From positions 1-64,000 of the forward strand of contig JAOUEV010000005.1 of assembly GCA_029858565.1 (NCBI GenBank): a stretch of DNA of 64,000 nucleotides. Direction: 5' to 3'. Shown piece by piece: positions 5,338-7,602 of this stretch. Position numbers and translations under genes: made by a program. The notes below the pieces were generated by a model. The model saw only the letters and a program-made list of their open reading frames with translations. It was not told where the DNA came from and made no database searches. This DNA comes from Nitrospirota bacterium. GTDB taxonomy: Bacteria > Nitrospirota > UBA9217. Every line of letters starts with the position of its first letter. Within the stretch, counting starts at the first letter, position 1.

Positions 5338-6366
5338 ATGGAAAGAAGACCCAAGAACATATCAATAAGTCGGTCGCTGATCATCATCCTGGTGACCTGC
5401 GCTTTTGCACTGGGCATATTCATCGGCAGAGGATCGTGGCTCTTCGGTACGGGGGAATCCCGCGTCGACGGTCCTTTTCAGTTCTCCTCTGAGGATTTCC
5501 GCTATATCCGCCAGTCCCTGCAGCAGGAGTCAACACCGGAGGGGAAGAAAAAACGGGAACTGAAGCCGTTCCGCTACAAGGTTAATGCGCTCATCGAGCA
5601 AAAAGTGGCAGAGGAGTCGGCCAGCTCGATCTCTGTATATTTTCGCGACCTGGACAACGGGAACCGCTTCGGTATCAGAGAGCAGGACCTGTTCTCTCCC
5701 GAGAACCAGCTTAAGCTGCCGTTGCTGATCGCCTATTTCAAGTGGGCCGAGGCAACTCCGCTGGTTCTCAGGAAGAAACTGACCTTCACGGCGCCGGAGC
5801 GGTCAAAATACCGGTTCCTGACCCCGCCGAGCACCATCCAGCAGGGCACCGCATACAGCGTGAACGACCTCCTCTTCAGGATGATCGCCTACGGGGACAA
5901 TGACGCCTATTCCCTGCTCGCTGCGAATCTCCCGCCAAAACGGCTCCAGACCATCAACAAGGACCTCTACGTCAATTACGACCCCTCCAAGAAGGAGGAT
6001 TTCCTCTCGCTCAGCTCCTACGCGTCATTCTTCCGGGTCCTGTTCAACGCGTCCTATCTTTCCGAGGAAATGTCGGAGAAGGCCCTTCGCTATCTAACCC
6101 GCTCATCGTTCAAGAAGGGAATGGCATCGGCCGTTCCTCCGGAGATCGAAGTGGCGAACAAGGCTGGCGAGCGGACCATCGGTAGCGCATCGGGACAGGA
6201 GATCATGCAGCTTCATGAGTTCGGCATCATCTATCACCCGCGCAGACCGTTCCTGCTCGGGATCACTGCGCGGGGAGCGGACTACGATCAGCTCGTAACG
6301 GTCATTCGCGATATTACACGCCTGATCTATGAGGAAGTGGAGACGCAAACGGGCGAGGAATTGTAG
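5338..6366 (+). CDS. Membrane-anchored class A beta-lactamase-fold protein, active-site Ser lost
   Basis: 342 residues with a short cytosolic tail, one membrane segment (about 14-30) and an exported domain of the class A beta-lactamase/serine hydrolase fold. The three family motifs can be located but are altered. The SxxK position in LFSPENQLKLPL reads N123-Q-L-K126, so Asn (codon AAC) replaces the nucleophile. The SDN loop reads G186-D-N in AYGDNDAYSLL. KTG is K275-A-G in NKAGE. Known relatives have Ser at the first motif, so this copy should not acylate beta-lactams. I infer a peptidoglycan-binding or regulatory pseudoenzyme. It is convergent with the DUF1573 gene. The ribosome binding site is weak. 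Confidence 0.75.
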   Translation: MERRPKNISISRSLIIILVTCAFALGIFIGRGSWLFGTGESRVDGPFQFSSEDFRYIRQSLQQESTPEGKKKRELKPFRYKVNALIEQKVAEESASSISVYFRDLDNGNRFGIREQDLFSPENQLKLPLLIAYFKWAEATPLVLRKKLTFTAPERSKYRFLTPPSTIQQGTAYSVNDLLFRMIAYGDNDAYSLLAANLPPKRLQTINKDLYVNYDPSKKEDFLSLSSYASFFRVLFNASYLSEEMSEKALRYLTRSSFKKGMASAVPPEIEVANKAGERTIGSASGQEIMQLHEFGIIYHPRRPFLLGITARGADYDQLVTVIRDITRLIYEEVETQTGEEL

Positions 6367-6416: not shown

Positions 6417-6797
6417 TTAGGGAGTGATACGGAGTGCTACTGAAAGCGATACGACCGGTGCCGTCGAATCATTGGAGTGAATGGCGACATGTTTGGTCAG
6501 ATTGCCGGAACGGCCGCTCGTATCCACGGTCACTTTTACCTGCGCTGTAGCACCCGGCGCAATCCGCTCGGAGCTGACCAGCCCCGCAGTGCACCCTCAG
6601 GAGGCGCTGACCTTCCGGATCACCAGCTCGCCGGTACCGTCGTTTCTGATCAGGAAGAGGTGCTCCAGCTTATCCCCGGCCTTTACCGCCCCAAAATCAT
6701 AGCGCACTTCCGGCACGTAGATACGCGGGCCGGACGGCGCTCCGGCCCAGAGTACGGCAGGAACCAATACCATCAAAAGCAATACCCATCGCCTCAT
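6417..6797 (-). CDS. DUF1573 protein, candidate selenoprotein with in-frame TGA (Sec67)
   Basis: ATG at 6797 has GGAGG nine bases upstream. The product starts with a signal peptide (about 1-21) and then the DUF1573 pattern YDFGAVKAGDKLEHLFLIRN. The first 66 codons end KVSAS, a TGA follows (6597-6599), and the same frame then continues GCTAGLVSSERIAPG for 59 more codons to TAA at 6417. The family consensus here is SCGCT, so TGA stands exactly at the first Cys. The post-TGA part keeps the PGxxxxVxVTxDTSGRxGNLxKxxxIxSND pattern. With a SECIS-like hairpin just after TGA, I read this as Sec67 in a 126-residue exported redox or metal-binding protein. A recent Cys-to-stop mutation is the alternative. 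Confidence 0.72.
6569..6586 (-). promoter_or_regulatory. Bacterial SECIS-like hairpin
   Basis: Reading the - strand from the base after TGA, bases 11-28 form a 7-bp stem CGGGGCU/AGCUCCG (one G-U pair) closed by the tetraloop GGUC. The loop starts 18 bases after the TGA with G-G. Bacterial SECIS elements are known to sit immediately downstream of UGA with a G-containing apical loop, and the E. coli fdhF element exposes a GGUC loop to SelB. The hairpin lies inside the coding region, as expected for bacteria. Confidence 0.65.
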
Positions 6798-6897
6798 AAA
6801 CAGCGGCCTCCGAAAGATATTTACCCCGTTCCGCTGCGTCCTGCAGGGGAAACGTCGGCGTTGCCGATCGAGAAGCACGGCGCGCTCCCGGCCTATA

Positions 6898-7602
6898 TCA
6901 GATGCCCATCTTCTTCTGTTCAATGACCCGGGCGAGCTCGTTGCGCAGGATAAGACCTTTTTCGATAAGAATGGCGGAGAGAGCTTCGATGACGATCCTT
7001 TGTGTCTTTACATCATTCCGGAGTTTTTCGAGGTCCTGCAGTTGCTGTGCCTGCTGCTGCTGCTGGTTCCATTCGGCCGTGGCAAAGTCGGGGATCTCGC
7101 GAACAAGCTCCATTTTACCCGAGGTCTTGGTGGTCTCGCGGAACGACGGCACGTCCTTGCGTGTCACCGGCTCGTTATCGTAATACTTCCTGATCGCGTC
7201 CTTGATCTCCGATGCCATGGAAAGGACCGGTTTGATGGTCATCCCGGTATTAAAGCGGATATTATCCATGGTGTCGATATCCATGGGATCGGACATGGCA
7301 AGCGTCAACGACTTCCCGTCCTTTTTCACCGGCATGACGCCGAATTTCTTGGCGATCTCCGGTTTAAGGAGATTGACCGTATCCGCGGGGATCTCCGGAT
7401 CGAAGAGGTTCACATAGGGGATATGCAGTTTCTCGGCGATGACCCGGGCGATATCCTCTTCCCGAGCGAACTCGAGCTCCACGATGATCGATCCCAGCTT
7501 GCCGCCCCAGTTCCGCTGATGGGAAAGCGCCGCCTCAAGCTGAAAATCGTCTATCAGGCCGGCTTCCTTCATCAGGTCGCCCAATTTTTTTCGTTCTGCC
7601 AT
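6898..7602 (-). CDS. Stand-alone MshEN (GspE/PilB N-terminal) domain protein
   Basis: 234 residues. Residues 5-150 match the N-terminal domain of type II secretion/type IV pilus assembly ATPases. The c-di-GMP-type MshEN signature is visible as KLGDLMKEAGLIDDFQLEAAL..Q followed by IVELEFAREEDIARVIAEKLHIPYVNL. No Walker A or ATPase domain follows. The C-terminal third is a Q/E-rich probable coiled coil (QQQQQAQQLQDLEKL) ending in a second amphipathic helix. MshEN domains are known to bind c-di-GMP in some ATPases, so this may be a diffusible c-di-GMP receptor or pilus adaptor. It may be cotranscribed with the DUF1573 gene, 100 bases downstream. Confidence 0.8.
   Translation of the reverse strand: MAERKKLGDLMKEAGLIDDFQLEAALSHQRNWGGKLGSIIVELEFAREEDIARVIAEKLHIPYVNLFDPEIPADTVNLLKPEIAKKFGVMPVKKDGKSLTLAMSDPMDIDTMDNIRFNTGMTIKPVLSMASEIKDAIRKYYDNEPVTRKDVPSFRETTKTSGKMELVREIPDFATAEWNQQQQQAQQLQDLEKLRNDVKTQRIVIEALSAILIEKGLILRNELARVIEQKKMGI

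Follow-up and report, generated by a model that had tools for sequence, protein, structure and literature searches.

A predicted selenoprotein of the DUF1573 family in a Nitrospirota bacterium and its TGA-bearing relatives across the phylum

A gene in a stretch of 64,000 nucleotides from a Nitrospirota bacterium (contig JAOUEV010000005.1; this whole stretch is hereafter called the window) very probably encodes a selenoprotein of the DUF1573 family, with selenocysteine (Sec) predicted at codon 67, an in-frame TGA. We base this reading on the position of the TGA, its conservation, a covarying hairpin in the relatives, the presence of Sec genes in the same genome and the link between TGA-bearing forms and selB.

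The DUF1573 gene and its surroundings

The coding frame, which runs from 6797 to 6420 on the minus strand, specifies 126 residues when the TGA is counted as one of them (Table 1). The initial annotation had described a frame of 126 codons interrupted once by TGA at codon 67, giving no strand; the frame is as described and belongs to the minus strand, a plus-strand reading of 6417-6797 making no sense. With the TGA read as Cys, the protein is matched by PF07610 (DUF1573) over residues 30-115 at 81.7 bits, against a gathering cut-off of 26.1, so that one DUF1573 domain spans the TGA, as had been proposed; PF22544 of Pfam also matches, at 61 bits. The DUF1573 family has an S-C-G-C-T motif, whose first Cys position is occupied by the TGA in the window gene, the peptide around it being S-A-S-U-G-C-T. 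A gene finder that treats TGA as a stop would cut the product off after residue 66. The probable signal peptide makes it likely that the protein is exported and acts outside the cytoplasm.

Gene order is kept in the taxonomic family of the window genome: MshEN, PP-loop/TtcA-like, the DUF1573 gene, then two genes that we take from their sequences to be an aminotransferase and SerA. Twelve of the 13 family loci have the MshEN gene upstream in the same orientation, in 8 cases at about 100 nt or less from the DUF1573 gene, and the thirteenth (L081) starts too near a contig end; the presumed aminotransferase gene is found downstream in all 13. This order does not suggest a redox role or a function for the DUF1573 gene. 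A convergent plus-strand gene of the Beta-lactamase2 family (5338-6366; PF13354, 98 bits) has relatives in 5 of the 13 family loci. Scanned against Rfam at gathering thresholds, the window gave only three tRNAs.

Table 1. Features of the DUF1573 locus in the window
Feature	Position	Strand	Details	Basis
DUF1573 selenoprotein gene (predicted)	6417..6797	minus	ATG at 6797, TAA at 6417-6419	sequence and domain match
TGA codon 67, predicted Sec codon	6597..6599	minus	column of the first Cys of the DUF1573 CGC motif	
U67-G68-C69 motif, predicted redox or metal-binding site	6591..6599	minus		sequence and loop position in the model
Apical hairpin, predicted SECIS	6569..6586	minus	7-bp stem, loop GGUC at 6576-6579	fold and published model
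Whole extended hairpin	6556..6595	minus	minimum free energy fold (-22.2 kcal/mol)	48-nt fold
Probable signal peptide	6741..6797	minus	about 19 residues	judged by eye
GGAGG, Shine-Dalgarno-like	6807..6811	minus	9 nt before the ATG	sequence
MshEN-domain gene	6898..7602	minus	directly upstream	present in 12 of 13 family loci

Conservation of the TGA codon

A DUF1573 gene with TGA was found in 13 of the 14 genomes of the same taxonomic family, the window's own included, at 14 loci in all, and the 13 loci besides that of the window are 39-55% identical to the window gene. The sole family genome lacking such a gene (G008) is 74% complete. Four weaker matches of the family search (E 3e-7 to 4e-4) are all without the stop, and the taxonomic order consists of the same 14 genomes and no others. 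The homologues do not end ahead of this point, an outcome that the initial annotation had counted against itself: the in-frame TGA recurs in 12 of the 13 other family genomes.

When 13 family genes were aligned by codon, leaving out the second copy that one genome (G012) has, every one of them had TGA in the column. The mean pairwise amino-acid identity is 0.515 over the 36 codons before the TGA, 0.723 over the 12 codons after it and 0.537 over the next 40. Nucleotide differences are commonest at third codon positions in each stretch, before and after the TGA, and the window gene differs from the gene of the same genus, after the TGA, by 19, 5 and 31 nucleotides at the three codon positions. 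The invariant column, together with the third-position differences downstream, implies that the part after the TGA is translated. A lone base error at 6597-6599 is unlikely, since the TGA is common to many separate assemblies.

Across the phylum, 110 of 395 genomes gave a DUF1573 match at E 1e-10 or better. We fetched 120 regions, mainly the best part of a longer match list, which together cover 107 of the 110 matching genomes. Among the 126 DUF1573 domains of these regions and the window, the motif column is TGA in 101 and Cys in 25 (21 TGC and 4 TGT codons), which supplies the count that the initial annotation had proposed but is no census, the search profile having been built from TGA-bearing genes with Cys placed at the TGA column. 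The exact U-G-C motif is present in 81 of the 126 domains, from 75 genomes. A protein-database search gave 4 matches, all with Cys at the TGA position; a scan of genome contigs, made with a Cys-written peptide pattern that is blind to TGA, gave 7 homologues under the titles Bacteroidetes/Sporocytophaga/Microscillaceae, Lentisphaeria or Phycisphaer-. Three loci (L160, L177 and L188) keep the TGA and have lost the following Cys (U-G-A, U-G-G, U-G-S), and would thus have a predicted Sec without a partner Cys.

It is exceedingly improbable that the TGA is a true stop, the downstream part being a relic (a pseudogene) or the result of a sequencing error. A simple mutation would leave just such a single stop, but it would have to be reconciled with a column shared by all 13 aligned family genes, with the 81 exact UGC domains, with the coding constraint downstream and with the link of TGA forms to selB described below.

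A hairpin downstream of the TGA

Folding reproduces the hairpin that had been described from the letters of the window, a 7-bp stem (CGGGGCU/AGCUCCG, with one G-U pair) starting at nt 11 after the TGA and closed by a GGUC loop at nt 18-21. The bacterial SECIS model, as given in the legend to Fig. 2 of PMC13188914, has a loop of 3-9 nt with a G in its first two positions, an upper stem of 4-16 bp, 16-37 nt between UGA and loop, and a free energy at or below -7.5 kcal/mol. The window hairpin fits this published model on all constraints: its loop is 4 nt long and reads GGUC, its stem has 7 bp, 17 nt separate TGA and loop, and its energy is -9.5 kcal/mol for the hairpin alone (-22.2 for the whole fold). 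When the 60 nt after the TGA were shuffled synonymously, 24 of 1000 shuffles passed the model and 5 of 1000 reached the same hairpin energy; the synonymous z-score of the stretch is -3.33. Of the 79 TGA ends of window open frames of at least 150 codons, 4 likewise pass the model. Taken alone, the window hairpin is suggestive; with the comparison across genomes, its prediction as a SECIS element becomes firm.

In the strict form of the SECIS test, 52 of the 81 UGC genes pass (29 fail), against 2.4 expected from synonymous shuffling, as do 18 of the 20 other TGA domains (1.2 expected) and none of the 25 Cys genes (0.4 expected). A looser search finds a hairpin in 70 of the 81 UGC genes and in 7 of the 25 Cys genes. 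The mean synonymous z-score is -1.06 in the UGC group and +0.23 in the Cys group, with -0.15 and -0.07 in two control stretches of the UGC genes. These figures bear on the reading in which the hairpin is a by-product of coding bias and no SECIS at all. That reading can draw on the 23 TGA-interrupted window frames that have a loose SECIS form, the DUF1573 gene and 22 others, and on dinucleotide shuffles of the 48-nt fold, which gave z = -1.36, with 20 of 200 equally stable. Synonymous shuffles, however, keep the protein and lose the hairpin, both in the window gene and in the UGC group, the Cys genes of the family do not pass, and compensatory changes are present, which makes coding bias a very improbable source of the hairpin.

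Given the 81 UGC genes aligned without gaps, and with no further guidance, RNAalifold returned a 7-bp helix around an AGUUC-type loop. Paired cells amount to 86.8% of this family helix (72.1% in shuffles), doubly changed cells to 106 (40.9 in shuffles), and the covariation score to 0.505 (0.255 in shuffles), with 0 of 500 shuffles as high in each case, counts that are not probabilities, the sequences being related; slid versions of the helix are at most 51.3% paired. The pairs changed on both sides and the further pair types do not exceed the shuffles (123 and 394 of 500 as high, respectively).

The GGUC hairpin of the initial annotation is real for the window gene, but it is not the form used by most relatives, whose AGUUC-type loop is displaced by about 4 nt in the 3' direction. 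A G opposite a G at columns 22/33 disrupts the family helix in the window gene, and the window gene folds to -22.2 kcal/mol in its own register versus -13.1 kcal/mol in that of the family; the 12 other family genes fold better in the family register than in that of the window gene, constrained folds of this kind being approximate, with a non-canonical closing pair forced in some relatives. Across the set, the window-type helix is 55.7% paired, versus 54.8% in shuffles. We infer that the window lineage may have re-registered its SECIS by 4 nt. The second copy in G012 (L092/L036) is a divergent TGA copy whose loop GGTCCG, at nt 22-27 after the TGA, amounts to GGUC in the family register.

Selenocysteine machinery and the link to selB

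The window genome (3.9 Mb in 144 contigs, listed as 100% complete) contains all four of the genes, selA, selB, selC and selD, that the initial annotation had proposed to look for. selA (604 bits) and selB (389 bits) adjoin on one contig (C101), both above cut-off, and tRNA-Sec is found on another (C73; 64 bits, anticodon UCA according to ARAGORN). Two selD genes, both above cut-off, lie on contigs C3 and C14 (L010 and L011), each with one in-frame TGA; the selenophosphate synthetase of this genome may thus itself be made as two selenoproteins.

Of the 395 phylum genomes, 177 have selB (E 1e-60). Among the 107 genomes whose domains were read, it is found in 80 of the 86 with a TGA domain versus 4 of the 21 with Cys only (Fisher p 2e-11, with no phylogenetic correction). 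Six TGA genomes lack selB at this threshold. One of them (G308) has an intact selA and a selB split in two, and another (G244) has fragments of both genes; neither selA nor selB was found in G001, G002, G141 and G242, which are 96%, 74%, 99% and 92% complete. These six exceptions count against the Sec reading; a low completeness could account for the absence in G002, but hardly for that in G001, G141 and G242.

Without Sec-tRNA, translation stops at a SECIS-controlled UGA, and the codon might accordingly serve mainly as a selenium-dependent switch, giving a short product without selenium and a long one with it, rather than for the chemistry of Sec. We consider this highly unlikely: all 25 domains that lack TGA in the column have Cys there, and they come mostly from genomes lacking selB (17 of 21), a pattern suggesting that the residue matters for its chemistry. 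These natural Cys counterparts also make the role of the residue testable by comparison.

Structure and possible function

The structure model of the window protein (mean pLDDT 87.5) is a seven-stranded sandwich, an Ig/ASH-type domain, in which residues 67-69 lie in a loop between strands 58-65 and 70-74. Its best PDB match is 2qsv of P. gingivalis (E 1.8e-8, TMq 0.72), a protein of unknown function that is also the one solved structure with a sequence match below E 0.001, followed by the PapD-like domains of HYDIN and the ciliary central pair, a likeness of fold. The identity of all these to the window protein is at most 21%, and we found no link between them and Sec.

Thioredoxin-like genes stand beside several groups of relatives. 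In family f8, a Cys form without selB that comprises the best-scoring Cys homologues, a DsbA-like CPHC gene is directly upstream in 6 of 6 fetched loci, and its end overlaps the ATG of the DUF1573 gene in three of them; in family f2, likewise Cys and without selB, a related CSHC gene is directly upstream in 3 of 4 fetched loci (among these DsbA-like neighbours, Pfam was run only on that of L097, one of the six f8 loci). A second TGA subfamily, with the motif U-[RK]-x-C-T at 13 loci, is followed in 12 by an AhpC/TSA-type C-x-Y-C thioredoxin (Pfam on L191). The neighbours in other families (UvrA, ApbE, UbiA, PCMT and DksA, with one representative each) have no clear theme.

The loci of this second, U-x-x-C subfamily (e.g. 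L179, L182, L191, L195 and L197) include neighbour clusters of NosD (12), ABC-2 permease (13), transglutaminase (13), C-x-Y-C thioredoxin (12), bd-oxidase-like (7) and NosL (5) genes, all named by Pfam on one representative per cluster. One of its proteins (L187) starts with a SCO1/SenC domain, fused to a TGA-bearing DUF1573 (U-[RK]-A-C-T), and two more (L185 and L193) are alike by eye. Tandem DUF1573 domains, with one TGA each, are found at four loci (L182, L186, L190 and L192, in genomes G372, G348, G394 and G155); the motif is U-R-x-C-T in the first domain and U-K-[RK]-A-T in the second, and by eye each TGA is followed by what looks like a strong hairpin whose loop contains AGTTC. These tandem proteins are predicted to contain two Sec.

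Such neighbours and fusions of the relatives, the DsbA-like thioredoxin and SCO1, suggest thiol/selenol or copper chemistry outside the cytoplasm. Redox chemistry of the thiol/selenol kind is the likeliest role of DUF1573, ahead of metal handling, and we put it forward tentatively. In the mechanism that we envisage, Sec would be inserted at UGA codon 67 by SelA, SelB, SelD and tRNA-Sec of the same genome, SelB acting through the hairpin whose GGUC loop comes 17 nt downstream of the UGA; the exported protein would then form a selenenylsulfide between Sec67 and Cys69 and trade electrons with a DsbA- or TlpA-like thioredoxin. Insertion, export and redox partner alike are inferred.

Sec67 and Cys69, for which the initial annotation had suggested a selenenylsulfide or a metal site, may form either. 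If they held copper or mercury without redox cycling, DUF1573 would be a domain for metal-site assembly or a metal carrier, a reading that is possible if somewhat doubtful. The second Sec-DUF1573 subfamily of the phylum lends itself to it, through the SCO1/SenC fusion and the NosD-, NosL-, ABC-transporter- and cytochrome-bd-like genes in its loci, but this subfamily is U-x-x-C and not U-G-C, none of its gene clusters is found around the window gene, and the three paralogues noted above keep U without the Cys. SCO proteins have also been linked to thiol redox, and the fusion does not separate a redox role from a metal role. The Cys form beside a DsbA-like gene, taken with the SCO1 fusion, provides a testable idea of DUF1573 function. 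It is tempting to go further and to regard DUF1573 as a widespread exported selenol module of the phylum, acting with DsbA/TlpA-type thioredoxins, whose SCO1-fused and two-Sec tandem forms would help to build copper sites, and whose SECIS in the window gene would have been re-registered by 4 nt, the ancestral stem having given up part of its 5' arm to the GGUC loop while Sec was kept. It is rather unlikely that this scenario holds in all its parts.

Comparison with known selenoproteins

In E. coli fdhF, the SECIS likewise has GGUC as its apical loop, about as far from the UGA as in the window gene; most relatives of the window gene differ from it, their loops being of the AGUUC type and about 4 nt further 3'.

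The initial annotation did not know DUF1573 as an established selenoprotein family, and in this it has to be corrected, the family having been published as a predicted one under the name OS_HP2 and being also modelled in NCBIfam (NF041425). It is listed with a UGC motif in a table of PMC9312934, and a table of PMC13188914 has DUF1573 (OS_HP2; pfam07610; UGC), credited to Zhang and Gladyshev 2007, with the Olavius algarvensis symbiont as its source. A table row in PMC2398784 reads OS_HP2, pfam07610, UxC, 2, 2, 354, in which we take 2 to be the number of Sec sequences and 354 that of Cys sequences. Besides these three papers, the literature search for the family returned PMC10434189. The family of these table entries shares with the window protein PF07610 and U at the first Cys of the conserved CGC motif, where the window protein has U-G-C. 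Set against the same entries, the present data differ by the exact U-G-C across 75 genomes of one phylum and by the shifted hairpin of the window gene. To NF041425 (OS_HP2 family (seleno)protein), the window protein aligns over model positions 1-94 of 98 (E 7e-23), and its 80.8 bits are below the curated cut-off of 100 bits, so that it is no named member of NF041425; the tandem protein of L186 passes, with 141 bits. In the literature searched, which covered few subscription papers, we found no report of a SCO1 fusion or of a two-Sec tandem DUF1573.

The window gene thus adds a member to a selenoprotein family that is already known. What is added here is the spread of DUF1573 with a predicted Sec in the phylum, the 4-nt shift of the window hairpin, and the redox and copper neighbours and fusions of the relatives. 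So far a table entry among predicted selenoproteins, DUF1573 gains broad support within one phylum as a selenoprotein family.
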